A stretch of 64,000 bases of DNA, taken from the NCBI GenBank assembly GCA_963555705.1, contig OY743177.1:1054001-1118000 (forward strand). The letters run 5' to 3'. The stretch comes from Ligustrum vulgare (Eukaryota > Streptophyta > Magnoliopsida > Lamiales > Oleaceae). Made by a program: the position numbers and the translations under genes. Of the stretch, positions 193 to 56,919 are shown one piece after another (positions within the stretch are counted from its first letter, which is position 1; each line of letters starts with the position of its first letter). The notes under the pieces are model-generated. The model did not search any database and was not told the DNA's origin. It was given only the letters and a program-made list of their open reading frames with translations.

Positions 193-907
193 TGATGTGA
201 TCCAGAACCCCGATAATACGAATCATAGCAGGTTTGACGGGAAAGTTCAAATATTCAAGCAAAACAAAGAAAAAAAGGACCAGTTTCATCATTATAGCCG
301 TAATGCCCAGCTTGTCACGGGCGTAATCTAGTCTAGGGTTAAAATGCAGAATTTCAAGTTTTTACACTTACGACCGTAAATAAGGAAGTCACGGCCGTAA
401 CTCTTCATCAGCAAGCGGCTTACGGTCATAATTGGAGCTTTCACGGTCGTAACCGAGGAGCGGATTATATTTCGTAGGATCTTGTTTATTTTATTTCCAT
501 TTTCCAATTTTAGTTATTTTGACTAGGGTTTTTGTTAGGTCTTTTTTCATTATTTATACGCTATTTCATTCAATGTAACATTCAAATTTTATTTGATTAA
601 AAACAGTTCTATTGAGGATTCAATAAAAGTTATAGGTGGATTCCTATATTTCATAGAACTTATCAAGATTACCGTCTTGTGGCGTTCATCCCGAACTTAT
701 CAAATATTCGCGAGAATATTTGTGGCGTTCAAAACCAGAAACTTATCAAGGAAGTTGGACACATCCTTGTGGCATTTCACAAATCTTGGTTCTTTATTCC
801 ACATCGTCGAGTCATCGCGTCGTGAATATCGGGTCATGATTCATCCATCAAACCACAACCTGAGTTCAGAACTTTTCGGCGTTTCTTCCGCGCTTCGAAT
901 CTCATCA
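193..907 (+). repeat. LTR copy 1 of the tandem array
   Basis: Outermost LTR, with an intact TGATG start next to the TSD. It has lost about 40 bp around 513 relative to the other copies (the stretch before GACTAGGGTTTTTG). Its palindrome array (about 290-455) is the most decayed of the five. It ends CTCATCA and is followed by TTTGG. Confidence 0.88.
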
Positions 908-912
908 TTTGG

Positions 913-1666
913 ATGTGATCCAAAACCCCGATAATACGAATCATAGCAGGCTTGACGGGAAAGTTCAAATATTTAAGCAAAACAAAGAAAAAAGGACCAG
1001 TTACATCCTTACGGCCGTAATGCCCAGCTTGTCACAGCCGTAATCCAGTCTCGGGTTAAAATGCAGAATTTCAAGTTTATACACTTATGGCCATAAATAA
1101 TGAAGTCACGGCCGTAACTCTTCATTAGCAAGCGGCTTACGGACGTAATTGGAGCTTTCACGACCGTAACCGAGGAGCGGATTAGATTTCGTAGGATCTT
1201 GTTTATTTTATTTCCTTTTCCAATTTTAGTTATTTTAGCTATTTTAGTTTAATTAGGATTCTATTTTGAGTCAATTAGCGACTATGGTTTTTGTTAGGTC
1301 TTTTTTCATTATTTATACGCTCTTTCATTCAATGTAACATTCATATTTTATTTGATTAAAAACAGTTTTATTGCGGATTCAATAAAAGTTATAGGTGGAT
1401 TCTTATATTTCATAGAAATTATCAAGATTACCATCTTGTGGCGTTCATCCCGAACTTATCAAATATTCGCGAGAATATTTGTGGCGTTCAAAACCAGAAA
1501 CTTATCAAGGAAGCTGGACACATCCTTGTGGAGTTTCACAAATATTGGTTCTTTATTCCGCATCGTCGAGTCATCGCGTCATGAATATCGGGTCATGATT
1601 CATCCATCCAACCACAACCTGAGTTCGGAACTTTTCGGCGTTTCTTCCGCGCTTCGAATCTCATCA
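913..1666 (+). repeat. LTR copy 2 of the tandem array
   Basis: Joined to copy 1 through TTTGG (908-912) and starting at ATGTGATCC, so the initial TG is missing. It carries the palindrome array at about 1010-1172 and a TATA-like TATTTATACG about 130 bp further on. One palindrome has become TTATGGCCATAA, which is still symmetric. Confidence 0.88.
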
Positions 1667-1671
1667 TTTGG

Positions 1672-2426
1672 ATGTGATCCAAAACCCCGATAATACGAGT
1701 CATAGCAGGCTTGACGGGAAAGTTCAAATATTCAAGCCAAACAAAGAAAAAAGGATCAGTTTCATCCTTACGGCCGTAATGCCCAGCTTGTCACGGCTAT
1801 AATCCAGTCTCGGGTTAAAATGCAGAATTTCAAGTTTTTACACTTACGACCGTAAATAATGAAGTCACGGCTGTAACTCTTTATCAGCAAGCGGCTTACG
1901 GTAGTAATTGGAGCTTTCACAGCCGTAACCGAGGAGCGGATTATATTTCGTAGGATCTTGTTTATTTTATTTCCATTTTCCAATTTTAGTTATTTTAGCT
2001 ATTTTAGTTTAATTGTGATTCTATTTTGAGTCAATTAGCGACTAGGATTTTTGTTAGGTCTTTTTTCATTATTTATACGCTCTTTCATTCAATGTAACAT
2101 TCAGATTTTATTTGATTAAAAACAGTTTTATTGAGGATTCAATAAAAGTTATAGGTGGATTCCTATATTTCATAGAACTTATCAAGATTACCATCTTGTG
2201 GCGTTCATCCCGAACTTATCAAATATTCGCGAGAATATTTGTGGCGTTCAAAACCAGAAACTTATCAAGGAAGCTGGACAGATCCTTGTGGCGTTTCACA
2301 AATCTTAGTTCTTTATTCCACATCGTCGAGCCATCGCGTCGTAAATATCGGGTCATGATTCATCCGTTCAACCAAAACCTGAGTTCGGAACTTTCTGGCC
2401 TTTTTTCCGCGCTTCAAATCTCATCA
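1672..2426 (+). repeat. LTR copy 3 of the tandem array
   Basis: Same abnormal join to its left neighbour (TTTGG then ATGTGATCC). Full length, with the palindrome array at about 1769-1930. Confidence 0.88.
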
Positions 2427-2431
2427 TTTGG

Positions 2432-3178
2432 ATGTTATCCAAAACCCCTATAATACGAATCATAGCAGGCTTGACGGAAAAGTTCAAATATTCAAGCCAA
2501 ATAAAGAAAAAAAGGACCAGTTTCATCCTTATGGTCGTAATGCCCAGCTTGTCACGACCGTAATCCAGTCTCGGGTTAAAATGCAGAATTTCAAGTTTTT
2601 ACACTTACGACCGTAAATAATGAAGTCACGACCATAACTCTTCATCAGCAAGCAGCTTACGGCAGTAATTGGAGCTTTCACGGCCGTAACTGAGGAGCGG
2701 ATTAGATTTCGTAGGATCTTGTTTATTTTATTTCCTTTTTCCAATTTTAGTTATTTTAGTTTAATTAGGATTCTATTTTGAGTCAATTAGCTACTAGGGT
2801 TTTTGTTAGGTATTTTTTCATTATTTATACGCTCTTTCATTCAATGTAACAATCAGATTTTATTTGATTAAAAACAGTTTTATTGAGAATTCAATAAAAG
2901 TTATAGGTGAATTTCTATATTTCATAGAACTTATCAAGATTACCATCTTGCGGCGTTCATCCCGAACTTATCAAATATTCGCGAGAATATTTGTGGCGTT
3001 CAAAACCAGAAACTTATCAAGGAAGCTGGACAGATCCTTGTGGCGTTTCACAAATCTTGGTTCTTTATTCCGCATCATCGAGCCTTCGCATCGTGAATAT
3101 AGTGTCATGACTCATCCGTCCAACCACAACCTGAGTTCGGAACTTTTCGGCGTTTCTTCCGTGCTTCGAATCTCATCA
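2432..3178 (+). repeat. LTR copy 4, functional 5' LTR position
   Basis: Same join on its left. On the right CTCATCA is followed by TT and the primer-binding site, so this copy occupies the true 5' LTR position. Palindrome array at about 2527-2690; TATA-like box near 2820. Confidence 0.9.
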
Positions 3179-3180
3179 TT

Positions 3181-3192
3181 TGGTATCAGAGC
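3181..3192 (+). other. Primer-binding site, initiator-Met tRNA type
   Basis: TGGTATCAGAGC lies two bases after the LTR end. This is the usual plant LTR-retrotransposon PBS complementary to the 3' end of initiator Met-tRNA. It primes minus-strand synthesis. Confidence 0.92.
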
Positions 3193-3461
3193 TAGACTCT
3201 GAATTCAGGTTCTTGTGTTTTTTTCTATCCAGTTTGATTTTTATGTTTATCATTGATTCCCATAAAAATCATTCATATCTTGTTGAGTATTTTGTTTTCA
3301 GTTTTTTTTTTTTAGTTTTTCTTGTTCTTCATGTCAGTAAAATTTTTCAGTTTTTGATCCATATAAAAATCCAACAAAAATTAAAAAGTGTTTGTTTTAT
3401 TCAATTCTTATTCATATCCTGTTTCGTTTGTTTTGTTGTGTTCGTGTCGAATTTTCGGATT

Positions 3462-3466
<5 letters not shown>

Positions 3467-3532
<66 letters not shown>
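3467..3532. repeat. AT dinucleotide microsatellite
   Basis: About 33 uninterrupted AT/TA units between the PBS and the ORF. It translates to runs of Ile-Tyr in several frames, which creates spurious ORFs on both strands. Length is likely to vary between individuals. Confidence 0.97.
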
Positions 3533-3535
<3 letters not shown>

Positions 3536-3745
3536 ATTTTTTTATTTAATTCCGAAAATTCATTATTCAAAACAAGAAAAAAAAAGAAAAAAAAAAAAAG
3601 AGTTGTTCCAAATTCAAGAACCACTTTCTTGAGTTTCTTTAAAATTATTGGTATTCATTTCCTTCCAAGTCAATAAAAGTCGTTCTTGCTATTTGATGTC
3701 TAAATCCTCTTCATTCTTGAATTTTTTTTTAACGTTACATAAGGA

Positions 3746-4750
3746 ATGGATTATGATCCGGGCTTTTTATTCCAAACTAGATGTTATGTGGATCATAAGG
3801 GGTGCTGTTTGACGATTGATGGAAAGTGCTTTACTAATTTCGTTAGTAGCACCGTGGTTGAAAAATTAGGATTACCCCTAGAACCACACTATGAACCTTA
3901 TAGGATGACGTGGATGAGGGAGTTTGGGAATTCCAAAGTAACCAAACAAGTTCTACTGCCTATTGCCCAGGGAAGGTATAGTGAGGATATATGGTGTGAT
4001 ATAGTGCCATTAAAATCTTATCAAATTTTATTGGGAAAATCATGGAGACGTAGGAGGGAGACTGTTTATGATAAAAGTATGCACATATATAAATTCCTTA
4101 AGAAAGGGAAAGTATGCGTACTATATTGGTTGACGTTAGAGGATGCACTAGAAGATTCACGAATGGTAAGGAAGGAGAGTGAAATGTGGTGTAATAGGAG
4201 GCGTTGTAGGGGTAAGGACATTGAAAAGAAGGAGGGGGAGTTTAAATTAAAAATGGATAATCAAATTCCAAAATTTAATGAGGAAAATGTGGAGTTGGGT
4301 AGCGAGGAAATGATTAAGAATGAAATTGTTGATGATAAGAGGAATGAATTGGGGGTTGAGGTAGAAGTTCAACATTTGAACTTTGAATTGAAAAATCCAC
4401 ATTTGGGTAGTGATGAGGTAGTGTACGAGCATGGTGATAAAAATGTGGAGTTAGGAGATGTGGTTGAGTTTGAAGATGAAAATTTTGAACAAGAAGTTGC
4501 AAAAGAGAAAAGAGGCGAAGAGAAGAGCCTCGTGGTTCAAGAAGTGGAATTGGTGGTGGTTTATCATGAATACAAGGATCCATATCTTGTACCTCATGAA
4601 TCTAACATGTCCCTCCCCATTTTGTTTAAATCTTTTTTGCAGGTTAATTACGTTTGGGAGCTTCAACCACACTACATATGGCAAAGGAAGTTCAAGCTCC
4701 ATCTCTTCCATGTTTGCCAATCAAATGATCCCAATTTATTGAACTCATAG
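3746..4750 (+). CDS. Retropepsin-like ORF of the non-autonomous element
   Basis: An intact 334-codon frame, the only one in this element. Residues 12-110 resemble the retropepsin region of the Ty3/gypsy element at 60348: an Ile-Asp-Gly start of the active-site loop at residues 24-26, VEKLGLP at about 38-44, and the C-terminal hairpin ILLGKSW at about 94-100. The usual Gly-Ser/Ser-Gly after the catalytic Asp is replaced (D25-G-K-C), so activity is doubtful. The rest is acidic and hydrophilic, with many Glu, Asp, Lys and Val-Glu-Leu segments, and has no RT or integrase motif. Start chosen at the first ATG; no splice signal is needed. It could be a relic of a pol N-terminus kept by chance, or a protein retained by this family. 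The decision needs other copies. Confidence 0.7.
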   Translation: MDYDPGFLFQTRCYVDHKGCCLTIDGKCFTNFVSSTVVEKLGLPLEPHYEPYRMTWMREFGNSKVTKQVLLPIAQGRYSEDIWCDIVPLKSYQILLGKSWRRRRETVYDKSMHIYKFLKKGKVCVLYWLTLEDALEDSRMVRKESEMWCNRRRCRGKDIEKKEGEFKLKMDNQIPKFNEENVELGSEEMIKNEIVDDKRNELGVEVEVQHLNFELKNPHLGSDEVVYEHGDKNVELGDVVEFEDENFEQEVAKEKRGEEKSLVVQEVELVVVYHEYKDPYLVPHESNMSLPILFKSFLQVNYVWELQPHYIWQRKFKLHLFHVCQSNDPNLLNS

Positions 4751-4810
4751 CATGGAAGCAGAAATTTTCCGTTTGATCCAGGGGGAGCAGTTGCATTCAT
4801 GAACAAAGCT

Positions 4811-4846
4811 ATGATTCGGGATGAATCATCCTAAAGAAGGAGGGTA
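4811..4846 (+). promoter_or_regulatory. Pre-PPT stem-loop and polypurine tract
   Basis: A 7-bp inverted repeat (ATGATTC, loop GGGAT, GAATCAT at 4811-4829) lies three bases before the purine tract AAAGAAGGAGGG (4833-4844), which primes plus-strand DNA. The 3' LTR begins at 4847. Confidence 0.8.
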
Positions 4847-5557
4847 TGATGTGATCCAGAACCCCGATAATACGAATCATAGCAAGCTTGACGGGAAAGT
4901 TCAAATATTCAAGCCAAACAAAGAAAAAAGGACCAGTTTCATCCTTACGGCCGTAATGCCCAGCTTGTCACGGCCGTAATCCAGTCTCGGGTTAAAATGC
5001 AGAATTTCAAGTTTATACACTTATGGCCATAAATAATGAAGTCACGACCGTAACTCTTCATCAGCAAGCGGCTTACGGCCGTAATTGGAGCTTTCACGGC
5101 CGTAACCGAGGAGCGGATTAGATTTTGCAGGATCTTGTTTATTTTATTTCCTTTTTCCAATTTTAGTTATTTTAGCTATTTTAGTTTAATTAGGATTCTA
5201 TTTTGAGTCAATTAGCGACTAGGGTTTTTGTTAGGTCTTTTTTCATTATTTATACGCTCTTTCATTCAATGTAACATTCAGATTTTATTTGATTAAAAAC
5301 AGTTTTATTGCGGATTCAATAAAAGTTATAGGTGGATTCCTATATTTCATAGAAATTATCAAGATTACTATATTGTGGCGTTCATCCCGAACTTATCGAG
5401 GAAGCTGGACAGATCCTTGTGGCGTTTCACAAATCTTGGTTTTTTATTCCACATCGTCGAGCCATCGCGTCGTGAATATCAATTCATGATTCATCCGTCT
5501 AACCACAACCTGAGTTCGAAACTTTCCGGCGTTTCTTCCGCGCTTCGAATCTCATCA
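4847..5557 (+). repeat. 3' LTR of the tandem-LTR element
   Basis: Starts TGATGTGATCC right after the PPT and ends CTCATCA at the TSD. It lacks about 44 bp near 5397 that lie between two AACTTATCAA copies in the other LTRs, which suggests a deletion between short direct repeats. The palindrome array at 4945-5105 is the best preserved of the five. Confidence 0.92.
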
Positions 5558-5562
5558 ACCAG

Positions 5563-7685
5563 GTTTGAAAGACCCCTTGGACTTACTTACTCGAGTTAAA
5601 AAGGCATTTGAAGAGCAGAAAAAGATGTTCAGCATTTTTCAATTTTTATGCTGGAAATGGTTTATACCCGTTGACCAAACTGCAATGACTAAAGTACAAA
5701 ACCAAGAACCACAGACCTTCAACCCGTCAATGCACACAAATTCCAACCATTCTACCCCCAAACTTGCCTTTGAGCATGATTGGTTCTAATTTAGGGATGG
5801 GATGTCTAATGATCTATGTTCAGGGATTTTCAAGTCATTCCTAAGTTCAAATTGTATAAACTTTACCCCACATGTATTAAACAAAATCCCTCACACAAGC
5901 AATTATCCAACGCTGGCTATGTGCGTAATGAATATGAATCTAGAAAAACATAACTAGTTCAAAATAAGTTCATGCTTTCATGTTGTCCAATTTTCAAGTC
6001 TAAGCACAAATTGATTCATACTATATCCTAGGCAATAAACATGTTAACAAAGTTTTCAATTTTTTTTTTTAAATCCCAATAGAAATAGAATGAGAATATT
6101 CAATGAGTATGGAAGTAATTGATATGAATGAAATTCTCCACCCCCAAACTAGAAAGAAACATTGTCATCAATGTTTGTCAAAAAGATCTAAAAAATGTAA
6201 TATAAGACAAAGAAGAGAGAACGAGAACTTCCCAGGTGAAATGTAGATGTTTTGTTGCCTTGATGCTTCCATTTGAAATGATGTTGGATAAATTTGACCC
6301 TATTCTTGCTCTGCCAAAATTAATTGGAAGTGTCTTGATTGGTGTTTACCTTGCAAATAAGAGATAAGTAACTTTAGAAGTCATAAACACCAATAAGAAA
6401 TAATGAAAGTTCAGTACCACACCCCTAAACTAAAGTTAAAGCAAAATTTTGAATTTTCAAAATTGGTCGACCACACACATTCAAGCATTGACATCGCCTA
6501 GAAAAACATAAATTTTCTCGAGCCATCTTTTGGTATGTTAAAGTTCACAGCATGATCGACAATATATTAAAAATTCAGTTCATTTGACGATCAATAGGGT
6601 CATGAAACAATGTGGAGAAGTAGGTGACGTGAGACAGTTTCTGGGTGCAATGGCTTGCAGTGACCTTGGAATGGGGCTGCCATGATACAAACGTGGTTTT
6701 AATGGTTTTAATGCCAAGATGTGAACTAACTCATGCACCACACACACATAAACATTGATAAACATGTCATGAAGATAAATGCTCGAATGAATTTATAAAA
6801 TTAGCACAAAACTCTCTTTGTGGCATTTCATCAAACACATGATATGCATTGCAAGAATCAAAGGGTATGCATAGGTTTGGAGGCATGAATGAACCCGAAA
6901 TTTTTTTCTACTAAACCACAAATCACAAACTCCAACAACTAATCTAAGTCCATTCTTCACAATTCACAATTTCAATTATTCAAGAACTAAAAGAAGATTT
7001 CATAAATTTGAGTTAACTATGTTTCAAGTGAAGCAATCCATACCTTTGATTTATTTGGATGTGAAAATAGTAATGAATTTGGGGAAATGAAGTGTTGATG
7101 ACATGCATGATAGATGGAATATTAATTCTGGAGTGATTTTGGGGAGAGAAAGAATTTGTGTTGTTTAAAATTGAAAGAATTAAGTGAAGCATTTAAACAG
7201 ATGGTTCTGCTACCAGTGTAGCCACGCGATCGCGTGGCTAGAGAGCCAGCGATTGTGTGGTTTAAGGTTTTAAAACCTGTTGATTTTTTAATGCAAACTC
7301 ACGATTGCTAGAGTCTATAGGCCCGCGATCCTGTAGTTTCTGGTAGTAATGGAAATTTTTCTATTTTTGATTTTCAAAATCGTTTTTAGCCCCCTAATCG
7401 CTTCATGATTTATGCAATGACGTTCCAACATTAACTTCATGATCCATATTAGTGTGTGTGTGAGTTGGGATGACAATTAAGAACCTAGTCTAATGAAAAC
7501 ATGCAAAATTAAAAACATACCTAAATTTGCACCAATAGACTAACATGCAAAAGTGTCCTCAAATATCCAAAACAAATAAAGAAATTAATAATTAAAGTGT
7601 AGTAAATAAAAGGGAGGAAAGGTTGGGTTGCCTTCCAACAAGCGCTCCGTTTTAAGTCTAAAACTCGACATTTTGCACTTCTTTA
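5563..7685 (-). other. Non-coding 3' spacer of the Athila-like element
   Basis: No convincing coding region. It aligns by eye, on the opposite strand, with the spacer of the element at 16194 (20345 to about 22440), and continues at 1-192 beyond the 193-5557 insertion. Shared landmarks are the hairpin GTTGGG...TCCAAC at about 7627, a GCGATCGC-type cluster (7218-7335), an internal PPT-like tract CCCCCAAACT (plus strand) at 6141 and its 8-bp stem-loop at 6157-6176. Confidence 0.75.
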
Positions 7686-10123
7686 TCATGGAGGCTTGAA
7701 TGATCCTCTTGAGCCCCTGTACAACTTACAATTACCTGCCTTGCACTTCTCGATCGGTCTCCTCACTTTCTTGAAGTCTAAAACCTCATTTTCCACATTT
7801 TGTTGACTAAAATTTTGTTTTTCCTCCTTCAAGTTATTCCTATCCTTCTTAACCTCCATGAACTCATGATTTGTGTTTGGAGCCTACTCTATTTTAATCC
7901 CATGCTTCAATTTTCCTGCTGGTTTTTGGACCACTTCCTCCACTTTAAAACAACTTTCATTTTGAACTTGATGATCCTGTCTTGGCTTGATGCTGAAAGT
8001 TACTTGTTCCTTCTCCACCCTAAAGATGATTTCTCCCTTTTCAATGTCTATTAAGGCTCTTCCAGTAGCTCAGAATGGCCTTCCAAAGATGAGAGGCATT
8101 TGAGTGTCCTCTTCCATATCTAGAATAACAAAGTCGACTGCGAAGAAGAATTTTTCAACCTTAACTATCACATTCCCCACTATCCCATATGGGTATTGGA
8201 TTGATCTGTTCACCAGCTTTAAAGTGATATTCGTTGGCTTAGGCTCCTAAGTCACATAGAACATTATCAAAGCTTAAATTACCAATAGTGCAAGGGATAG
8301 AGAAAATCCCTGGATCGGTCAATTTTTGGGATAATTTCTTTTGAAGTATGGCGCTGCACTCCTCACTCAGTGCTACTGTCTCAACATCAACCAACTTTCT
8401 TTTGTTTGACAGCATCTCCTTCATAAACTTCAAGTAGAGGGGCATTTGGGCTAAAGCTTCGGCAAAAGGGATGTTTATATGTAATTTCTTGAAAATCTCT
8501 AAAAATTTCCCAAATTGCAGCTCCAAATTTTGCTTTCTCAGTCTTTGTGGATATGGAACTGGAGGTACATATGCCTTGACTAAAGGTCGAACTCGAACTT
8601 CTTCTTCCACTTTTTCTTAAGTTTCTGAAGTTGACCCTTGTTCCTTTTCACTATTCTGCTCTTCCACCACATTTTTCTTCTGGTCCTTCTATTTTTCATA
8701 TTCCTCTACAATCACTTCAGATAGCTGAACCCCGCTCCTTGTTGTTATTGCGTTAACATGCTCACGAGGGTTTGTTTCAGTGTTGCTTGGTAACTGTCTC
8801 GGCTGTCTTGTTGCACTGCTCGCTGCCAACTCTCCCATCTGTTTCTTCAAATTTTTTATTTCAGCAGCTTGATTCATTAATTCTCCATTCTGACTCTTGA
8901 CTAGCTGGATTAACACTTCTATATTCTCGGATATGTTTTTCTGAGATTGTTGCTATTGCTGAAATTCAGGTGGGCGCTGAACAGTCTGATTGTTAGACCA
9001 AGAAAAATTGGGGTGATTCTTCCATTCTGGATTGTATGTTTGTGAATATGGACCACCCTACTGTCTATTTCCCACGAAGTTGACCTGCTCTGGATTTGAT
9101 TGATTTTGTTGTAATGGGCAGAAATTTACAGCGTGATTCTCAAAGCAAAAATCACACAAAATCGTTTGTACTGAATTGATTGGTTGCACACCCATGCTGT
9201 CTATTTTCTTTGTCAAAGTATCCAGCTTAGCATTTAATACTGTAATCTCACTAACTGCAACAATTCCCCCAGACTTTGGTGTAGCTCTATCTGAGTACCA
9301 TGGTAACTCTTCCCAGCCATCTTCTCAAAAATCTCAGATGCTTCTTCATATGTTATATCCATTACAGACCCTCCAACTGCTGAGTCTGCATACTTTTTAT
9401 TCTCATTTGTCAACCCATTGTAGAATGTTTGAACTAGTATCCAATCAGCGATTCCATGTGTAGGACACTGTCTGATGAGCTCGTTGAACCTTTCCCAAGC
9501 CTCAAAATTGATTCCCCAGGCTGTTGACTGAATGATAAAATCTCACGCCTTAGCTTTGACATGTGGCCAGGTGGGAAAAATTTATCTACAAATTTCTGGC
9601 TCATAACTTCAAAAGTGGTGATTGTGTGTAGACGCAAAGAGTAAAACCAGGCTTTTGCTTTGTCTACCAAAGAGTATGGAAATAACTTTAATTTCATGGC
9701 GTCATCTGAAACTCCATTTATGCGTTGCATATCACATAGTTCCAAAAATGTCCGAAGATGCGCATGAGGATCTTCATATGGCAATCCATGAAAAACGCAT
9801 GAATTTTGGATCAAGGATATCAAGGAAGTCTTGATCTCAAAATTATTAGCTTAGATTGCAGGAGGTACAATGCAGGTTCCAATGTTCCCCACAGGAGGAA
9901 CCATGTAGTCTCGCAAAACACACCTTCCATGATTTTGTTGCTGTCCATTCACAGCTTCCGGCAGATCTTGTTGATTTTCCTGATTATCCTGAATTCTATC
10001 ATCGGCCATGGCTAAGTCTATTTGTTGATTCGCTTCCAACTGTTTTCTACGCCTCTGTCGAAAGGTGCATTCAATTTCTGTATTAAAAGGAATCAGATCA
10101 AATGACTTAGTCATTCTTAACAT
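7686..10123 (-). pseudogene. Athila-like gag-protease pseudogene
   Basis: Homologous along its whole length to the intact 836-residue ORF at 17834-20344. It starts at the same Met-Leu-Arg context and stops at the same place. The frame is broken by a stop near 9850, a frameshift near 9510, and further stops or shifts near 8920 and 8620. Recognisable pieces are the capsid-like segment with AKAWFYSL (about 9640) and KFFPPG (about 9570), the Cys-His finger region near 9120-9160, and the protease start CDLGA near 8240. It encoded the particle protein and protease; it cannot make the full polyprotein now. Confidence 0.88.
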
Positions 10124-10246
10124 AAATTCAATAAAACAAAAATTAAAAACAAAAACTGAAAATTAATATAAAAATAAAAATAAAAATAAGCAAAATAAAG
10201 TTCAAAGTAAAATAAGAACTAATGGGTATCGATATTAATTAACAGT

Positions 10247-10263
10247 TCCCGGCAACGGCGCCA
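10247..10263 (-). other. Primer-binding site, Asp-tRNA type
   Basis: Read on the minus strand the sequence is TGGCGCCGTTGCCGGGA, the PBS typical of Athila-type elements. It lies six bases inside the LTR end and before gag-pro. Confidence 0.85.
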
Positions 10264-10826
10264 AAAACTTGTTTACTGATATCTCGTGATGCAAGATATC
10301 CACGCAAGTGTACGGGCCGTGAGAAGTAGTAAAGCGGACCTTAGAGTCAGAATTATAGTCCCACAGAGACTGCTATTAAGTATCGAAATGTGTTAGTTCC
10401 TATCTTTATTTGAACGGACAAATATGTTTGAGAATTTAAACTAAAACTAGAGAATTATATTAAAGAATTAAAATTGCGAAATTGTTTTTTTTTTTTAAAA
10501 GACGATTGTAAAGTAGTTGGGATTCACGATTTCACCTAGCCAATTAAATCAATTTCAATTCCAGTTTTATTTCCTAAAAATGCATTCGGTCGAATTCACA
10601 AATGTATATTGAATTTCTCTCTCGAGTTTAAATCAATTCTACCTAAATAAGTCAACCTCGTATCTCTACAGAGGGTCCTAATATTCCTTATCTAGATGCA
10701 TAACATGCAAGAATTCACACATGACCGCAATGATAACAAGAGTATATCTCTATCTCTCGTTCAATTACCGGATTTATTACCACGTTCTAAGTTATTAACT
10801 CACCTCTCGCACTAGTACAATAAGAG

Positions 10827-13650: not shown

Positions 13651-14653
13651 TTGTTATTTTTTTTGGATTTTTTGTACTAGTGTCGGATTATGGAAATAAC
13701 TCAATATACCGTGAATTGGTGATCAAGCATTAAGAACAATAATAAATCAATACATGCAATAAAACATTAAAACACAAAATTTGGAATTAAAATAATATGA
13801 CTAGACTACATCATTCATCCCAACAATTAATTTAGTTACACATCATTAATAAAAAACAAGAACAATAAAAATTAACGTTCATTAAAAATAATATAAAGAA
13901 TGAAAATCTTGCACCAAGTTTTGATTCTTCAATTATCTTCAATTCACGCCCCCTTTGCGATGCTTGATTCTCCAAGAATTTGATGTTGAATTCTCTGTTG
14001 TGGCTCATTCTATGGAGAGGCAAAGGTCCAGATTTCGTGTCTCATGTGTTGTATATATAGGTTTTGACGAAACCTAGGTCAAGAAAGAGAAAATTCTTTT
14101 GAAAATTGCGAGAAAAAGCCCACAGCCGGCCCAGTTGGATAAGCACGCGATTGCATAGGTAAAACCCTAGCGATCGCGTGGAATACATTAAAACTCTCGG
14201 GGTTAAGATTTCGCATCTTCTCGCGATCGCGTGGTATGCATCCAGCGATCGCGACTTCCATCCTTTTTTCAGCTGTGTAAGTTGGTCCCTGACTTTTAAT
14301 TGCACCTTCAATCCTCAACTTTCAATTGTTGCAATTTAGTCCCCAAACTTTATCTTCTTCTCGATTTGCCCATTTGAGCTCTCAAATCCTTCAATTCGTT
14401 CCTCCAACCTTTGATTTCTTATCTTTGGCACCATATAGGTTTCCCGGTTGATATTATCACTCCCCATCTGCTCAAGTAAGCTCCAATTAACATCCAATTG
14501 TGTCATTTTTCCATTAATTTCTTCATTCTTTGCCTTTTGGGATATTTTCTACAAAGTAAACAAATAAACATAAATTAAATAGCATATGTCCTAAAACGAC
14601 AATAATTTCTTCTAATTTAGACATACATATAAGCGTATAAAATACATTTATCA

Positions 14654-15650
14654 AATACCCCCAAACTAGAACTATTGTTCGTCCTCGAACAATGTAAACT
14701 AAACTAACAAATTAAAATAACCACATGCAATTGTTTTTGTTGTGTTAACATGTTTACCAAATGCCTCAATAGTCCAAATCAATTCAAGCTTTAAGCAAGA
14801 GTTATGAACAACAATGCAATATACTTTCTAGTTATATCATGCCAGATTTTCAAGTGTATGTGTGAATAGCCAACGTCAAACTCATACTTATGCAAAAGAT
14901 ATACTAAACACTGTGTGGCTCATTATGCATAATCAAGCCCGAATCCCCTGTGGTCAATTTATGTATTCTAATGAAATTCCTTTCAACGCTCATGGGTAAT
15001 CACCACTTTCTGCTTTTCTCTCACATCCAGGGTTTTTTATCTATGTGGGTTCTAAAACTATTCTTTGCTTTTTCCACACAAGGTAGTCAGAATCAGAAAT
15101 ATGCGTGCACAACAAATCAAAAGAAAGCAGTCCCCAATTCTACAACCTTAACCACCATAGCTTAGTCAACTAAGCTTATACCATGCATTTATATTGTTTT
15201 TTTTTCTTTCTTTTGATGGACGACTTTTTCTTTTAATTGTCCTTGCCTTTTACCATCTTTGTGTAGAACTTTTCATACTTGCTTTCTATATGACCACTGT
15301 TGCGGGCTTTCGGGTCGGCAACTCCCAAACCAGTTGGCTTTAGGGTACCAGGTTCAAAGAATCCCTAAGACGTACTTGCCCGAGTTATAAAGGCTTAAAT
15401 AGAAAAGTTAAAGATGTTTTAATATCTTATGTGTAAGTCCACTCTCCGTACTTGCTTTCTAATTGATCCCTGTAGCAAGCTTTAGGTCGATGACTCCCAA
15501 GCCAGTTGGATTTAGGGCACTAGGTTTGAAAGATTCCTCGGACTTACTTACTCGAGTAAAAAGGCATTTGAAGAGCAGAATAAGACCTTCAGCATTTTTC
15601 TGTTTTTATGCTGGAAATGGTTTATACCCATTGACCAAACTGCAATGACT
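14654..15650 (-). other. 3' internal remnant of the right Athila-like copy, with PPT and stem-loop
   Basis: On the minus strand the sequence ends TAGTTTGGGGGTATT against the LTR start at 14653. It is preceded by an 8-bp stem-loop, ATTGTTCG-AGGA-CGAACAAT (14674-14693). The rest matches the terminal spacer of the element at 16194 (about 22320-23320). It stops at about 15650, where integrase sequence begins. No coding capacity. Confidence 0.8.
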
Positions 15651-16193
15651 AAAGCTAACACTTCCAAATTCATTTGGAAAAACATAATCTGCAGATTTGG
15701 TATTCCTCACTCCCTTTTCACGGATAATGCAAAGCAATTCAAGAACAAGAAAATTGATGAGCTATGCGAAGAAATTGGCATTTGCAAGTTATTCTCCTCA
15801 CCACACCACCCCCAAGTGAATGGGCAGGTCGAAGCAGTGAACTACACTATAAAGAACACACCGAAGGGGAAGTTGGAGTAAAAAAAGGGCGCATGGGTAG
15901 ATGAACTTTCCCAAGTTTTATGGGCACTTCAGACAACACCTCATACGGCCACAGGAGAAACTCCCTTCTCTTTGTCTTATAGAGTTGAGGCAGTATGCCC
16001 AGTCAAAATCGAAGTCCCGTCAGCCCGGTTAATCCATTTTGTCGAGTAGGAAAATGATTGAGTGCAACGGACTGGGCTTGACTTCCTATGGGAAAAAAGG
16101 AACGACTCTCAGAGGGTGCGGACTCGCTATCAAGAAAAGATGACTCGATATTATAACAAGAAAGTGAAGAGGAGGTCATTCAAAGTGGGGGAC
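15651..16193 (+). pseudogene. Tat-type integrase, core fragment (5' part)
   Basis: Ty3/gypsy integrase core from a plus-strand Tat-type element. It shows SKFIWKNIICRFGIPH, the second catalytic Asp in FTDNAKQF, and the catalytic Glu in NGQVEAVN (about 15830), followed by the spacer and the start of the C-terminal GPY/F module. In-frame stops occur at about 15880 and 16048. The first catalytic Asp and everything upstream (gag, protease, RT, RNase H) are missing at the joint with the Athila-like remnant. It is interrupted at VGD by the element at 16194-24826 and resumes at 24827. Confidence 0.85.
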
Positions 16194-17693
16194 TGATAAG
16201 TGTATTTTATACACTTATTTGTATGTCTTAATTAGGATTAATTATTGTCGTTTGGGAATATTTGCTATTTAATTTATATTTATTTGTTTACCTTTCAGAA
16301 AATGTCCCAATTGAAGAAGAATGAAGCAATTAATGGAAAAATGACACGATTGGATGTTAATTGGAGCTAAATTGGATAAGTGAGGAGTTTGTGACAACAA
16401 CCGGGAAACATGCTTGGTGCCAAATTGACTAAATTAGAGGTTGGAGGACCTAATTGAAGGAATTAAGAGCTTAAATGGGCAAATCAAGAAGAAGATAAAG
16501 TTAAGGGACTAAATCGCAACAATTGAGAGTTGAGGACTGAAGGTGCAATTAAAAGTCAGGGACTAACTTGCACAGCCGGAAGAATGATGAAGTCGCGATC
16601 GCTGGTCATACACCAAGCGATCGCGAGAAGACGCAAAATTGTAACCCGAGAGTTTTAGGGTCAAGCACGCGATCGCTAGGGTTGAAGCCACGCGATCGCG
16701 TGGCTTTCTGGCTGGGCCGACTGTGGGCTTTTTCTCGCGATTTTTATCAGACTTTTCTTGTTTTGACCTAGGTTTTATCCAAAACCTATATATACAACAT
16801 AAGAGGCACGAGATCTAGACCTTTGCCTCTCCAAAGAACGAGCCACAACAGAGATTTTACATCATATTTTGGGGAATTGAGCATCGCAAAGGGGCGTGAA
16901 TTGAAGATAATTGAAGAATTGAGACTTGGTGCATGCTTTCCTTTCTTCCTATTGTTTTCAATGAACGTTTTAGTTTATTGTTTATGCTTTTTAATCATGA
17001 TGTGTAACTAAATATAACGTTGGGATGAACGATGTAGCCTAGTTAATTATTTTAATTCTAAATTCCTTTGTTTTAGTAATTCGTTGCATGTATTGATTTA
17101 TTATTGTTCTTAACGCTTGAATTGCTTGATCACCAGTTCATGATATATTGAGTTATTTTCATAATCCGAGAGGTGAGTTAATAATTTAGAACGTGGTAAT
17201 AAATCCGGTAATTGAACGAGAGATAGAGATATACTCGCGTTATTATTGCAGTCGTGTGTGAATTCTTGTGTGTTATGCATCTAGATAAGGAATATTCGGA
17301 CCCTCTGTAGAGATACATGGTTGACTTATGTAGGTAGAATTGATTTAAACTCGAGAGAGGAATTTCAATATACATTAGTGAATTCGACCGAAGGCATATT
17401 TAGAAAACAAAATCTGGAATTGAAATTGATTTAATTGGCTAGGTGAAATCGTGAATCCCAACCTCTTTACAATCGTTTTTAAAAGCAAAACAAATTTCAT
17501 AATTAAATTCTTGAATTCATCTTCTTAGTTTTAATTTAAAACATAAAGTTCATTTGTCTGTTCAAATAAAGTATAGAACTAAAATATTTCGGTAGTTAAT
17601 AGCAGTCCTCGTGGGAACGATAATCCGGACTCTAAGGTCCACTTTATTACTTGATTGCGATATCGTACACTTGCGATCTCAAATTGCACAACA
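16194..17693 (+). repeat. 5' LTR (1500 bp) of the gag-pro element
   Basis: TGATAAGTG...CACAACA. Four GCGATCGC palindromes at 16595, 16617, 16669 and 16692 lie about 90 bp upstream of a TATATATA box (16787-16794). Perfect 18-bp palindrome around 16687-16704. The U3 half is nearly identical to the 3' LTR; the R/U5 half is not. Confidence 0.93.
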
Positions 17694-17699
17694 AGTTTT

Positions 17700-17717
17700 T
17701 GGCGCCGTTGCCGGGGA
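17700..17717 (+). other. Primer-binding site, Asp-tRNA type
   Basis: TGGCGCCGTTGCCGGGGA, six bases after the LTR end. It is the PBS usual for Athila-lineage elements. Confidence 0.9.
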
Positions 17718-17833
17718 CTGTTAATTAATATCGATACCCATTAGTTCTTATTCTACTTTGAACTTTATTTTGCTTATTTTTATTTTTATCTTTATTTTCA
17801 GTTTTTGTTTTCAATTTTTGTTTTATTTAATTT

Positions 17834-20344
17834 ATGTTAAGAAGGACTAAGTCGTTTGATTTGCTTCCTTTTGATACAGAAATTGAACGCACCTTTCGAC
17901 AGAGGCGTAGACAACAGTTGGAAGCGAATCAACAAAAAGACTTAGCCATGGCAGATGACATAATTCAGAATAATCAGGGAAATCAACAAAATCTGCCAGC
18001 AGCTGTGAATGGACAGCAACAAAATCATGGAAGGCGCGTTTTGCGAGATTACATGGTTCCTCCTGTGGGGAACATTGGAACCTGCATTGTACCTCCTGAA
18101 ATCCGAGCCAATAATTTTGAGATCAAGACTTCTTTGATATCCTTGATCCAAAATTCGTGTGTTTTTCATGGACTGCCATCTGAGGATCCTCATGTGCACC
18201 TTAGGACATTTTTGGAACTATGTGACATGCAACGCATGAATGGAGTCTCAGAGGATGCCGTGAAATTAAAGCTATTCTCATTTTCTTTGGCGGACAAAGC
18301 AAAAGCCTGGTTTTATTCTTTGCCCCTACATACAATCACCACTTTCGAAATCATGAGTCAGAAATTTTTAGATAAGTTTTTCCCACCTGGCCGCATGTCA
18401 AAGCTAAGGCGTGAGATTTTATCATTCAGTCAACAGCCTGGGGAATCAATTTTTGAGGCTTGGGAAAGGTTCAACGAGCTCATCAGACAGTGTCCTACAC
18501 ATGGAATCGCTGATTGGATACTAGTTCAGACATTCTACAATGGGCTGACAAATGAAAACAAGAGGTACGCCGACTCAGCAGCTGGAGGATCAGTAATGGA
18601 TATGACATATGAAGAAGCATCTGAGATCTTTGAGAAGATGGCTACGAACAGTTATCAGTGGTATTCGGATAGAGCTACACCTAAGTCTGGGGGAGTAATT
18701 GCTGTTAATGAGATTACATCATTAAATGCTAAATTGGATGCATTGACGAAGAAAATTGACAGAATGGGTGTGCAGACAGTCAACTCAGTTCAAACAGCGC
18801 TATGTGATTTTTGTTTTGAAAATCACACTGTAAATTTCTGTCCCATGCAACAGAGTCAATCAAATCCAGAACAAGTCAACTTCATGGGCAACAGGCAACA
18901 GGGTGGTCCTTATTCACAACCCTACAACCCAGAATGGAAGAACCACCCCAACTTCTCCTGGTCTAAAAATCAAAATGTTCAGCATCCACCTGGATTTCAG
19001 CAACAGCAACAGCCACAGCAACAGCAACAATCTCAGAAAAACATATCCGAGAACATAGAAGAGTTAATTCAGCTGGTCAAGAGTCAGAATGGTGAGATTA
19101 TGAATCAAGCTGTTGAAATAAAGAATTTGAAGAGACAAATGGGAGAGCTGGCAGCAAGCAGTTCAACAAGACAGCCTGGACAGTTACCAAGCAAAACTGA
19201 AATGAACCCTCGTGAGCATGTTAATGCAATATCAACGAGGAGCGAGGTTCAGCTATCTGAAGTAACTGTAGGGGAATATGAAAAGCAAAAGGGCAAAAAT
19301 GAAGATGTGGTGGAAGAACAGGAAAGCGAGAAAGAACAGAGATCGACTCCTGAAGTTCATGAAAAAGTCGAAGAAGAAGTTCGAGTTCGACCACCAGTCA
19401 AAGCTTATGTGCCCCCAGTTCCTTATCCACAACGATTGATAAAGCATAAGTTGGAGCAGCAGTTTGGAAAATTTTTGGAAATATTCAAGAAACTGCACAT
19501 TAATATTCCTTTTGCTGAAGCATTGGCCCAAATGCCCCTCTACTTAAAGTTTATGAAGGAGATGCTGTCAAATAAAAGGAAGTTGGTTGATTTTGAGACA
19601 GTAGCACTGAGTGAGGAGTGCAGCGCCATACTTCAAAAGAAATTACCACAAAAATTGACCGATCCAGGGAGTTTCTCTATCCCTTGCACTATTGGTAATT
19701 TCACTTTTGATAATGTATTATGTGATCTAGGGGCCAGTGTTAACCTAATGCCTTTGTCTGTATACAGAAAACTTGGTTTGGGAGAGCCTAAACCAACAAA
19801 TATCACACTAAAGCTTGCTAACAGGTCTATACAGTATCCATATGGGATAGTGGAGAACGTGATTGTGAAAGTGGACAAGTTCTTCTTTCCAGTTGACTTT
19901 GTGATCCTTGATATGGAGGAGGACTCTCAGATGCCCCTGATATTTGGAAGACCATTTCTTGCTACAGGGCGAGCTCTCATAGACATCGAAAAAGGGGAAA
20001 TCATTTTTCGAGTCGAGCATGAACAAGTCAGTTTCAGCATCAAGCCAAGACAGGATCTCGAATATCTAAAGGAAAGTTGCTTCAAAGTGGAAGGAGTAAT
20101 TCAGAAACCAGAAGAAAATGAGAAGCAAGGGATTAAGTTCGAGGAGGATCTAAGCGCAAAACATGAGTTTATAAAGGCTAAAGATGGATGGAGGGACAAA
20201 AAGGAAGAAAAGCCTAACATCCCTCAACAATGGGCTAAAAGTGAGGCTTTGGGATTCAAGAGAGTGAGAAAACGAATAGAGATATGCATGGCAGGAAATT
20301 GCAAGCTGTGCAGGGGCTCAAGAGGATCATTCAAACCTCCATGA
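17834..20344 (+). CDS. Athila-like Gag-protease polyprotein
   Basis: An intact 836-residue frame. Residues about 95-270 form the retrotransposon Gag (capsid-like) domain, with FHGLPSEDPH, ADKAKAWFYSL and FFPPGRMSKLRREI. A Cys-His finger CX2CX3HX4C lies at 324-336. A Gln-rich linker (388-400) and a charged, possibly coiled region (405-520) follow. The retropepsin starts at about 610, with active-site CDLGASVNLMP at 630-640 (catalytic Asp631) and IFGRPFLATGRALID at 703-717. After that the protein is charged and ends without RT. Gag would build the cytoplasmic particle that packages element RNA, and protease would cut it. The start is the first ATG, 117 bp after the PBS, with no upstream in-frame ATG. 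All domain hallmarks are present, so it may still be functional. Confidence 0.92.
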   Translation: MLRRTKSFDLLPFDTEIERTFRQRRRQQLEANQQKDLAMADDIIQNNQGNQQNLPAAVNGQQQNHGRRVLRDYMVPPVGNIGTCIVPPEIRANNFEIKTSLISLIQNSCVFHGLPSEDPHVHLRTFLELCDMQRMNGVSEDAVKLKLFSFSLADKAKAWFYSLPLHTITTFEIMSQKFLDKFFPPGRMSKLRREILSFSQQPGESIFEAWERFNELIRQCPTHGIADWILVQTFYNGLTNENKRYADSAAGGSVMDMTYEEASEIFEKMATNSYQWYSDRATPKSGGVIAVNEITSLNAKLDALTKKIDRMGVQTVNSVQTALCDFCFENHTVNFCPMQQSQSNPEQVNFMGNRQQGGPYSQPYNPEWKNHPNFSWSKNQNVQHPPGFQQQQQPQQQQQSQKNISENIEELIQLVKSQNGEIMNQAVEIKNLKRQMGELAASSSTRQPGQLPSKTEMNPREHVNAISTRSEVQLSEVTVGEYEKQKGKNEDVVEEQESEKEQRSTPEVHEKVEEEVRVRPPVKAYVPPVPYPQRLIKHKLEQQFGKFLEIFKKLHINIPFAEALAQMPLYLKFMKEMLSNKRKLVDFETVALSEECSAILQKKLPQKLTDPGSFSIPCTIGNFTFDNVLCDLGASVNLMPLSVYRKLGLGEPKPTNITLKLANRSIQYPYGIVENVIVKVDKFFFPVDFVILDMEEDSQMPLIFGRPFLATGRALIDIEKGEIIFRVEHEQVSFSIKPRQDLEYLKESCFKVEGVIQKPEENEKQGIKFEEDLSAKHEFIKAKDGWRDKKEEKPNIPQQWAKSEALGFKRVRKRIEICMAGNCKLCRGSRGSFKPP

Positions 20345-20684
20345 TAAAGAAGTGCAAAAAGTCGAGCTTTAGACGTAAAACGGAGCGCTTGTTGGGAGGC
20401 AACCCAACCTTTCTTCCCTTTTATTTATCATGCTTTCAGAATTTATTTATTTATTTGCAGAATTTTAGATATATGCATATTTAGGTATGTTTTTGATGTT
20501 GCATGTTTACATTAGGCTAAGTTTTTATCGTCATTCAAAACTCACACACACTAATTTGAATCATGAAGTTAATGTTTGGAAAATCATTGCATCAATCATG
20601 AAGCGATTAGGGGAATAAAAACGACTTTGAAAATCAAAAAAAGAGGAAAAAATTTCATACTGCCGTGAACTGAGCGATCGCGGG

Positions 20685-27331: not shown

Positions 27332-28257
27332 TGATGAGTTCCCGGTCGGGGAATCTCGTCGAACACGCGGAATAACGATAATTAAAACCTAGGAAAGATC
27401 TAAATCAGATCGACACAAGACAAACAACGAAAAATAAGGATAGAATGACGGTAAAGCCTTGACCCGACAATCACGACGCAATTTATGACGATGCGGATTG
27501 AAGAACCAAGATTGGTGAATGCCACAAGGACTTGTCAATATCCTTGATAAGTATCGAATTTGGAAACACCACAAATACTCTTGCGAATATTTGATAAGTT
27601 TGCTGGAAGAACGTCACAAAGATCGGATCTTTGATAAGTTCAAGAAAAAGGGAATAAACTCAACCTCTCAATTTTGGAGAATCCTCTCACAAATTTTATT
27701 AATCAACTCAAACTTGTCTGTCTTTACAATGAATGGAAAAAGCGTATAAATAAGAAAAATAACCTAGTATCTAATTTACTCAAAATAGAATTCTAAATAG
27801 ACTAAAATTCTAAAATAGGAAAATAACCTAAAATAATAAAAGGAAACAAAATAATTGGTAAAATTCCGGAAAATCTGGAATCCTGAATTACGGCCGTGAA
27901 TATATAGCTTACGGCCGTAATGAACATTCTGTCTCAATTTTCAATTAGGTGTTACGGCCGTGATCAACATGTTACGGCCGTAAAATATTTCAATTTCAGT
28001 TTTACGGCCGTGATAAACTTCTTACGGCCGTAATCAACGTTCTGCCTGTTTCTGCCTTAAGGATGTTACGGCCGTAAAAATGAAGGTTACGGCCGTGAAT
28101 CACGTGCTGCCTTATTGTTTGATTTCCTGCCTCGGCTCGATCCTTTCCTCTTCTCGGCTCGACCCCAACACGGAACTTGCTCCGTTTTACACGTAGATCA
28201 CTATCATATTGCTGATGGCTCGACTTCGTCCTTCGATGCCTGGTCCGGATCACATCA
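27332..28257 (-). mobile_element. Solo LTR with TTACGGCCGTAA array
   Basis: On the minus strand it starts TGATGTGATCCGGACC and ends AACTCATCA, 926 bp, with a perfect TSD CTCAA (27327-27331, 28258-28262). No internal region. It is related to the LTRs of 193-5557 and 46890, which share the TGATGTGATCC start and CATCA end. Eight palindromes in four pairs lie at 27893-28108. A TATA-like TTATTTATACG lies downstream on the minus strand at about 27744-27754. It formed by LTR-LTR recombination after insertion. Confidence 0.93.
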
Positions 28258-46889: not shown

Positions 46890-47770
46890 TGATGTGATCC
46901 AGACCACGAACACAAGCCCGCACAAAGATCCATTGAAGATCAAAGGAGGACCGATGGCTCGACTGCAAACAAAGAGGGCCAACGAAGCAATGGACAAGCT
47001 AGTGCAAGAAACAATGGCCAAAACAATGTTCGTGTCGTCAAAAGAAGCAAGTTCCATGTTGGGACCAAGCCAAAACGATGAGTGGACCAACCTCGTTCAA
47101 GCCGTCGAAGAAAATTGCAAAGTTTCAAAATTCACGGCCGTAACCCGTAATTCTTACGGCTGTGAAGAGCTCACTGCTGAAAATTGAGAATTTGAAGAAA
47201 TTGGACTTACGGCCGTAATGCATATTTGTCACGGCCGTAACGCAGCCTCGGATCAAAAACAAGATTTTCAGAAAATATAAATTACGACCGTAAATATTTA
47301 TCTCACGGCTGTAACTGTTAAACAGAAACAAGGTTACGGCCGTAAGGGAGTTAGTCACAGCCGTAAAAGCCTATACGCGTGAATTTTAGGGTTTTATTTA
47401 TTTCCTTATTTTTAGGTAGTTGTTTCCTTGTTTAATTAGAACTCTTAACCTAGATTTTGACCCTATTTATAGGGATGTAATTTTCATTATTCAATACACA
47501 ACTTTGATATTATAATTGAGATGCTATTTTGCTTTCATATTCTTATTCTTCATTGAATAAAATCCGAACTTGCGAGTTAATCTTGTTTGTTCAAATCTTG
47601 GGTGAGATTTACTTTTATTGTGATCAAGAGGTCAGCATATCTATTGATTGTGTTGGTTGCTTGGTTCAATTAATTTGAATCAATCTCTAAATCGTGGTTC
47701 TTTGGCGTTCTTGGGTCGATTCCAATAATTTGTGGGTTGCGTAGCTACAATTTCTACGTGGTTTGCATCA
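46890..47770 (+). repeat. 5' LTR (881 bp) of the gag-pol element
   Basis: TGATGTGATCC...GCATCA. Palindrome array of four pairs (47130-47368), then CTATTTATAG (47463-47472) as TATA-like box. A reading frame (to 47187) runs through the first 300 bp and corresponds to the end of pol, which reads into the LTR at the 3' end of the element. Confidence 0.92.
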
Positions 47771-55462: not shown

Positions 55463-56919
55463 TGATGCGTGTCGTAATGCACCAAAATAATAATTAAATT
55501 CCTTGTTCACTATTACTAAGAATATAGCAGTGGAAGCAAGGGTCGATCCCACGAGGAACGGGAACTAATTTAATGCCATGTCAATTAGAATTATAAGGGG
55601 GGTTTTGAGTTGAAAATTGCAATTAATCTAAATAATCAAATAAAGATGTAAAATAGCTGGAATAAAAATCAATTAATAAGAAATCCTAGTTCTCAGGTTC
55701 GGTTGTGCCCTATCATGATATTGTCATTCCCCAAGCAACGCATGTACTATTTCCTTTGTTTTATTTATCACCCGGAATAATCAAAAAGCTCTGATTAATC
55801 CAATTCTTCCTTAATAATAATCAATTGGAATTAGTTCTCCAATCAATTTAGAGTGAATGAACAACCTAGAATAAGCTCCCTAGATTTAATTCATTAACTA
55901 TGTGAAAACAAGAAGAATTAGGTGAACTAAATTATCAATTACATATGCTCGAATTGATTAATCTAGATTGAATTTTCATATGGAAATATAAAATTACCAA
56001 TTGCTACTATGATTTGAATAACAAGACAAATACGAATCCAATTACCCAAATTAGCAAACATCAACACAATAATTAAAAGACAAGGCCTTAATCAATTAAT
56101 AAATTGTCTTGACGAAATTGATGTTCATGAGAAATCCAATAAATAAAATATAAAAACAAGAACTACGTTACGAGTTTGAGGAATGAATAATAAAATAATA
56201 TGAACACAACGTCCCCCTTGAACTAGGTTGAGAAGATTAGCCATGCATTGCCATGAAGAATTCCCCAAAAGTATTGTCTTGATTCACCTTGATTTTGCCT
56301 AGGATTTCTTCTCTTCAAACTTTAATATTGGTGGCTCTCAAAATTAATTCTCCTCTCTCTTTGGTACTGAATTGCTCCTTTTATAGAGCTCAAATTCGTG
56401 CCCTAGCTTAGCCAAAAAGAAATACCAAAGATAGAGTTTAAGTTGAATTAGGAAACAATTTCCTTTTTTTTTTTTCGGGCTTAAGTTACGGCCGTAATAT
56501 AATGAGTTACGGCCGTAACTCACTTTCTGTTTAATTTCTACGCAATTGATTCACTTCTTACGGCCGTGACTTTGCATTCAATACGGCCGTAAGATCCTTG
56601 TTACGGCCGTGACTTGGTTTCTATACGGCCGTAAGATTCTTGTTACGGCCGTGACTTGGTTTCTGCAAATTTTCGTACTTTTGTTTAATCAGCTTCTTAC
56701 GGCCGTGACTTTCATGGTTGCGGCCGTAAATTATTTACATGCCAGGTCCTCGAACTTCCTTTTTACGTGCTTTTTAGTCCTTTTTCCTTCTTTTCTTGTC
56801 ATTTGCGATCCTACACAATATAAAACATAAAATGTATTAAGCAATACTTAATTAGGATCAAACTAAAAGTAATTCGAGGCAACAAGTAAAGAAATAAAGT
56901 GCTAGTAAAGCACTTATCA
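55463..56919 (-). mobile_element. Solo LTR with TTACGGCCGTAA array, Athila-type ends
   Basis: On the minus strand TGATAAGTGC...CGCATCA, 1457 bp, with a perfect TSD ATCGC (55458-55462, 56920-56924). The palindrome array lies at 56484-56732 and CTCTATAAAAGG at about 56376-56387 downstream on the minus strand. Near its end it has a GTTCCTCGTGGGATCGAC stretch seen in Athila-type U5 regions. It has the same palindrome word as the unrelated TGATGTGATCC LTRs. Confidence 0.9.

Follow-up and report, generated by a model that had tools for sequence, protein, structure and literature searches.

In Ligustrum vulgare, long terminal repeats (LTRs) of Ty3/gypsy-type retrotransposons carry arrays of a short, 12-bp palindrome, TTACGGCCGTAA, which is present in tens of thousands of copies, is arranged in pairs whose spacings follow the turn of the DNA helix, is preceded at a fixed distance by CAG, lies in most cases upstream of a TATA-like box, and is shared by LTR groups with no detectable similarity outside the motifs. 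We consider it probable (about 0.62) that the array is a directional composite cis-regulatory module of the U3 region, bound by a host protein and common to several retrotransposon lineages. Its binding, the cooperativity of binding, the activation of transcription and the transfer of the module between lineages are what we infer from these regularities of sequence.

Palindrome arrays and their host elements in the window

The stretch analysed, called the window below, is 64,000 nucleotides long. It contains 53 matches to TTACGGCCGTAA with at most two mismatches, compared with a mean of 1.10 and a maximum of 4 in 100 dinucleotide shuffles. All these sites are confined to the LTRs at 193-5557 (five copies), 27332-28256, 46890-47770 and 55463-56919, and the remainder of the window holds three lone matches with three mismatches and nothing else. 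Clearly, the palindrome arrays that an earlier note on this DNA had described in these four LTR groups are real, as is the distance of 20-23 bp between the centres of paired sites. Chance or base composition as their source is excluded by the shuffles and by the reversed-letter control used in the genome search below. The arrays and the elements that carry them are as follows.

193..5557, plus strand: non-autonomous Ty3/gypsy-type element with four tandem LTRs, a 1.7-kb interior and a 3' LTR
292..452, plus strand: array of six palindromes (three pairs) in LTR copy 1 of this element, spacings 23, 53, 21, 31 and 21 bp
550..558, plus strand: TATA-like box TTATTTATA in LTR copy 1, 98 bp after the array
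1009..1169, plus strand: array of six palindromes in LTR copy 2
1768..1928, plus strand: array of six palindromes in LTR copy 3, the site at 1791 with three mismatches
2529..2689, plus strand: array of six palindromes in LTR copy 4, the site at 2626 with three mismatches
4945..5105, plus strand: array of six palindromes in the 3' LTR (copy 5)
27332..28256, minus strand: solo LTR with the 5-bp repeat CTCAA on both sides
27888..28098, minus strand: array of eight palindromes (four pairs) in this solo LTR, spacings in sense order 21, 44, 20, 30, 20, 43 and 21 bp
46890..47770, plus strand: 5' LTR of a Ty3/gypsy gag-pol element of autonomous type
47132..47366, plus strand: array of eight palindromes (four pairs) in this 5' LTR, spacings 22, 53, 22, 53, 21, 31 and 21 bp
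55463..56919, minus strand: solo LTR with a TGATAAGTGC end and the 5-bp repeat ATCGC on both sides
56486..56729, minus strand: array of nine palindromes in this Athila/Tat-type solo LTR, spacings in sense order 21, 54, 20, 22, 20, 23, 51 and 21 bp

The order within pairs proposed earlier, a site with TTAC followed by one with TCAC, held for most pairs. It failed in the first pair of 27332-28256, which is reversed, at 47132, where the first pair is a TCAC site followed by TTACGGCTGTGA, and in 55463-56919, whose nine sites are in mixed order. Across 48 oriented arrays, position 2 was T in 96/111 distinct first-of-pair sites and C in 80/110 second-of-pair sites.

The 193-5557 insertion is flanked on both sides by the 5-bp target-site duplication ACCAG, and the only open reading frame (ORF) of at least 180 aa in its interior (3746-4750, 334 aa) had no Pfam match. 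Its four tandem LTR copies at the 5' side (193-3183) thus share a single pair of ACCAG duplications, and the sequence at the three LTR-LTR junctions is CATCA-TTTG-GAT, which looks like a fusion of the beginning of the primer-site side with the next LTR. A 5-bp target-site duplication and TG...CA ends were found for 193-5557, 27332-28256 and 55463-56919, and primer-site-like TGGTATCAGAG was found at 3181 in the 193-5557 element and at 47773 in the 46890 element. The latter has a gag ORF at 48325-49491 and reverse transcriptase and RNase H in 60801-62567 (Pfam matches PF03732, PF00078 and PF17917); its 3' LTR begins at 63885 and is cut by the end of the window. It has homologues in many plants, and the nearest named gag matches, at about 57-72% across a part of the query, are those of Melia, Carya, Citrus and Fagus. 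Presumably it is akin to the CRM clade of chromoviruses, which it would resemble by its integrase end; its gag and reverse transcriptase were confirmed here.

The 46890 element harbours a nested element, inside which the 55463-56919 LTR sits. As the nested element's own 2.9-kb LTRs (49374-52232 and 57471-60329), which are of another type, lack any palindrome site, the array is not a feature of every LTR. Other repeats were also seen in the window. A probable solo LTR of yet another type at 28497-30105 (TGTAGCGACC...GTCACA, with GAAAC on both flanks) contains direct repeats at 29213-29592 and no palindrome site. Large inverted copies of other elements, 83-86% identical (5558-10823 and 17153-22449; 13683-15654 and 22313-24296), carry no palindrome array, and a gag ORF of 836 aa lies at 17834-20344.

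Copy number, helical phasing and the CAG element

The assembly from which the window comes (1.385 Gb, 51 contigs) was searched with the palindrome and, as a control, with the same motif in reversed letter order. The exact palindrome occurs 74,995 times, compared with 14 for the control, and exact pairs 20-23 bp apart occur 43,146 times on the forward strand, compared with none. For a closer view we took every cluster behind the first 100 places among the matches listed (L014-L045) and 12 further loci (L046-L057), all of which lie in the first 3 Mb of a single contig and were picked for holding an exact site or pair. Together with the window, this gave 69 clusters, and 64 arrays with at least three sites (8 from the window and 56 fetched).

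Single-linkage grouping of the motif-masked flanks of these 64 arrays separated 42 arrays in chromovirus-type LTRs, 18 in Athila/Tat-type LTRs and 4 others, which lie outside LTRs; both type names are provisional and given after the LTR ends. One of the four, in L029, is an internal array (6264-6425) that follows a protease ORF (5312-6088) and precedes the 3' LTR; both LTRs of this element carry arrays as well. Internal arrays of the same kind are present in L035 and L040, judged by sequence, and in L054, judged by flank similarity. The three ORFs of L029 matched gag, nothing, and an aspartyl protease, respectively; none matched the Athila ORF-1 model PF03078, and no reverse transcriptase ORF of at least 100 aa was found in this element, which is why we use the label Athila/Tat-type. 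PF03078 was reported in 16% of Athila elements (PMC6317226). At four other loci (L019, L022, L028 and L043 on C1), two array-bearing LTRs lie only about 1.5-2.4 kb apart, forming non-autonomous elements. They share the LTR start and the array with the 46890 type, and most also have a primer-site-like sequence nearby; the 46890 type could act as their helper.

The DNA double helix in its B form repeats every 10.5-10.6 bp or so, and A-form RNA every 11 bp. The best-fitting periods of the four window arrays were 10.6, 10.45, 10.6 and 10.55 bp. In random trials in which the within-pair spacings were held and the longer gaps were drawn from 26-60 bp, the observed fit was reached in 2/5000 trials for three window arrays and in 0/5000 for four. 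The 64 arrays, with 42 distinct spacing vectors, gave a best period of 10.59 bp. Neighbouring sites in them are mostly about 21, 31, 43-44 or 52-53 bp apart; the ranges are 19-24, 28-32, 42-45, 51-54, 64-65 and 75-76 bp, with one exception of 37 bp. Of these spacings, 224/232, and 87/94 of the long ones, deviate by no more than 2.1 bp from a multiple of 10.5 (42% expected by chance), although the values are not independent because most arrays share ancestry. When they were collapsed to 12 family-by-spacing values (49 arrays), 103 of 200,000 random sets fitted as well. Some of the long gaps may mark a lost site (43 as 21 + 22, 53 as 21 + 31), in which case steps of 21 and 31 bp remain, which are still whole turns.

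The same oscillation was seen across the genome. Over the range covered, 20-40 bp, exact forward-strand pairs numbered 511 at 24-29 bp, 4,488 at 30-32 bp and 703 at 33-40 bp, with 0 in the control for each. Expressed per bp, the counts were about 10,787 at 20-23 bp, 85 at 24-29 bp, 1,496 at 30-32 bp and 88 at 33-40 bp, and among the matches listed many of the 33-40-bp pairs were sums of two shorter steps. Off-phase gaps also occur, in 27-bp subfamilies, in a 17-bp subfamily and in the single gap of 37 bp. Subfamilies with gaps of 26-27 or 17 bp were found at L060-L062, L064-L066, C1:8505490 and similar places; in L061 and L064, which have the 27-bp gap, the sites flanking the off-phase one are again 75-76 bp apart.

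A second element accompanies the pairs. The sequence CAGAA is present in 31/67 distinct long spacers, compared with 3.8 in shuffles, and in 62/111 distinct contexts CAG begins at position -11 relative to the pair's first palindrome. After the removal of similar contexts, CAG was found at -11 in 33/61, and no other position had it in more than 3 (mean 0.76 and maximum 5 in shuffles). It is frequent in the 193-5557 and 27332 type (16/28), in Athila/Tat-type LTRs (8/10) and in internal arrays (7/7), and rare in the 46890 type (2/16); four copies of CAGAA begin one turn farther out, at -21 or -22. This fixed position links unrelated contexts more tightly than the palindrome does by itself, and favours a common origin of the module over its independent invention.

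Placement, kinship and sequence change of the arrays

It had been claimed earlier that the arrays lie upstream of the TATA-like box at a similar distance, and in the window the array end indeed precedes the box by 97-141 bp in all four groups; the distance is 132-141 bp in LTR copies 2-5 of 193-5557. Among the wider set, the array ended 96-98 bp before the TATA box in 9/9 cases of the 46890 type, and 121-141 bp before it in 20/23 cases of the 193-5557/27332 type, with single cases at 98, 109 and 238 bp. In the 13 oriented arrays of Athila/Tat-type LTRs, the box followed the array at 84 bp in six and at 99 bp in the window copy. In the other 6/13 no TATA match was found by the patterns used, and TATTAAA was similarly placed in 5/6 of these. 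None of three internal arrays had a TATA match (3/3). The TATA-less arrays mean that a pure promoter role fails to cover every case.

These exceptions bear on the possibility that the array is bound as DNA in just the same manner, only by a silencer, a chromatin organiser or an anti-silencing factor instead of an activator. Host factors that recognise transposons are known, such as the fission-yeast CENP-B homologues on LTRs, and the phasing and copy number would suit any cooperative DNA-binding protein. Besides the arrays inside Athila/Tat-type elements, away from a TATA box, the CpG content fits such a role: each palindrome contains two CpG sites, and the observed/expected CpG ratio is highest in the sites (2.1-2.7), compared with 0.25-0.68 in the spacers and 0.67-1.39 in the remaining sequence of the eight window LTRs. 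However, successful elements should lose the target of a silencer, yet tens of thousands of copies retain it, and the position just upstream of the TATA box suits activation better. We therefore regard a silencing, organising or anti-silencing protein as unlikely, with silencing or marking as the main rival of activation, and an activating protein as the better candidate.

The earlier note had counted four different LTR families and argued that shared ancestry is insufficient to explain the arrays. The count did not stand: with more copies included, 193-5557, 27332-28256 and 46890 join one single-linkage family. After masking of the motifs, 193-5557 and 27332-28256 could be aligned over about 320 bp downstream of the array (0/200 shuffles as good), and 27332-28256 and 46890 had one weak stretch of 35 bp in common (3/200 shuffles). 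Homology between the 193-5557 and 46890 arrays extends to their spacers (0/2000 shuffles as good), and the alignment of their whole motif-masked LTRs was no better than chance (16/200 shuffles). The argument from ancestry survives for the Athila/Tat-type LTR at 55463-56919, which showed no similarity to the other three outside the motifs (29, 69 and 109 of 200 shuffles as good). These alignments indicate that the module was inherited within one large group and is present also in an unrelated one.

The sequence changes in the sites were also compared. The 30 sites of the 193-5557 copies have 29 changes in 180 G/C letters, 25 of which are C-to-T or G-to-A, and no change in 150 letters at positions 1, 3 and 10-12, a pattern that probably reflects deaminated methylcytosine. 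When the two LTRs of each of seven elements were compared, the sites differed at 23/576 positions and the remainder at 100/4502; in columns containing G or C, the numbers were 23/309 and 91/1619. Once inserted, the sites thus have no protection, and it is mostly their G/C content that accounts for their faster change. Between lineages they are the most alike part, which would point to selection acting while the elements are active.

A functionless remnant of tandem duplication in related elements, with the 10.5-bp regularity descending from one ancestral array, would agree with the single linkage family formed by three of the four window groups, with the homology of the 193-5557 and 46890 arrays down to their spacers, and with the recurrence of spacing vectors between copies. 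Common descent, instead of function, could also account for the shared orientation of the module. Against a remnant, the motifs stay alike between lineages and the spacers do not, the differing vectors (31, 43-44 and 52-53 bp) are nearly all in phase, and the decay of sites after insertion is no slower than that of the rest. Moreover, the Athila/Tat-type LTR and the internal array have only the motif, the phasing and CAG in common with the others. Hence, a mere remnant appears improbable to us, and a module maintained by its function is preferred.

RNA hairpins were the other reading offered in the earlier note besides a protein bound to one face of the DNA helix. The pairs could act as hairpins or in the dimerisation of genomic RNA for packaging, as do the palindromic dimer-initiation sites of retroviruses. 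Any two copies of the palindrome are complementary by sequence, transcripts have U3 at their 3' end, and the internal arrays would likewise be part of the RNA. In neighbouring pairs within one molecule, however, sense RNA did not show the pairing of the retroviral type: 91/130 distinct pairs have a sense-strand mismatch at the T-to-C position, which becomes a G.U pair in antisense RNA. Furthermore, hairpins have no need for in-phase distances of 31, 44 and 53 bp between pairs, and the period is 10.5-10.6 bp, not the 11 bp of A-form RNA (mean cosine of the spacings 0.80 at 10.5 bp vs 0.60 at 11 bp). A role in RNA is consequently very unlikely. Given this period and the mismatch in sense RNA, our reading is that the array works in double-stranded form, as DNA bound along one face; the protein reading gains strong, if indirect, support from the long gaps at multiples of about 10.5 bp and from the genome-wide oscillation of the counts, with binding itself suggested by this spacing. 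Cryptic splice sites, with the GTAA end of the palindrome as donor and the spacer CAG as acceptor, were rejected by inspection, as the base after the last GTAA of a pair is C in 58/110 and rarely G (13/110), and splicing predicts no phasing.

Proposed module, related systems and implications

The unit of the module would be CAG(AA), 6-8 bases, TTACGGCCGTAA, 8-11 bases and TCACGGCCGTAA, in about two to five repeats that place nearly all palindromes on one face of the DNA, and the module would end about 85-140 bp upstream of the TATA box. The array would act as an upstream promoter or enhancer, most likely bound cooperatively, as double-stranded DNA, by a dimeric host protein; each palindrome would accommodate one dimer and each pair two dimers two turns apart, and CAG would perhaps be the site for a partner protein. 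By its half-sites the palindrome may suggest the NAC, LBD and other transcription-factor families, to none of which we assign the protein. The module, common to unrelated Ty3/gypsy lineages, was probably passed on via recombination between elements, and would be kept since the copies holding it are expressed and spread.

A more far-reaching proposal is that one composite code, CAG plus helix-phased palindrome pairs, passed between chromovirus and Athila/Tat elements and acquired a second, internal site in the latter, that it is the genome's most abundant promoter-side protein-binding array, with more than 43,000 exact pairs, and that one host protein gates or marks most large retrotransposon families. 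We offer this proposal tentatively, since we find it rather more doubtful than probable.

Full-text literature searches for the motif and for the concept returned no description of such an array, and in the main text of a survey of plant CRM-clade chromoviruses (PMC3059260), the strings 'palindrom' and 'tata' do not occur. The palindrome had 0, 0 and 1 matches in viral contigs; its 4 matches in bacterial and archaeal contigs were judged to be due to chance. The translation of one array matched nothing among the predicted proteins of other plants at E up to 1, and two pieces of pol found no plant contigs among the viral contigs.

Tandem cis-elements in U3 are known from plant copia-type retrotransposons, namely the BII boxes of Tnt1 and the 13-bp element of Tto1. 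The BII boxes are described as binding defence-induced DNA-binding factors (PMC3316501). They are the closest known kind to the array described here, both being short elements in an LTR promoter; as in Tnt1, U3 holds repeated sites whose position upstream of the TATA box is fixed, with the exceptions given above. In contrast to Tnt1 and Tto1, the motif here is palindromic, forms pairs in phase with the helix, has a second element at a fixed distance, is common to unrelated Ty3/gypsy lineages in tens of thousands of copies, and has a second location outside LTRs. Heat-activated elements of the ONSEN type carry arrays of heat-shock elements in their LTRs, for which both factor and response are known. 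They are similar in having an array of sites for one host factor, putative in our case, and differ in the sequence and the spacing rule. The VANDAL DNA transposons contain arrays of motifs recognised by VANC, an anti-silencing protein that they encode themselves. What they have in common with the arrays here is the dense packing of short, sequence-specific motifs, present in many mobile-element copies; however, VANDALs are DNA transposons, not retrotransposons, and their motif is different.

Even taken purely as sequence, the array is a genome-wide regularity for which the full-text searches gave no precedent, and the target of the putative protein is now defined to the base and the helical turn. 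This makes testable both the common control of unlinked retrotransposon lineages and the movement of regulatory modules between them. If the proposed reading is true, a single DNA-binding protein could govern, within one genome, tens of thousands of promoters that belong to unrelated retrotransposons.
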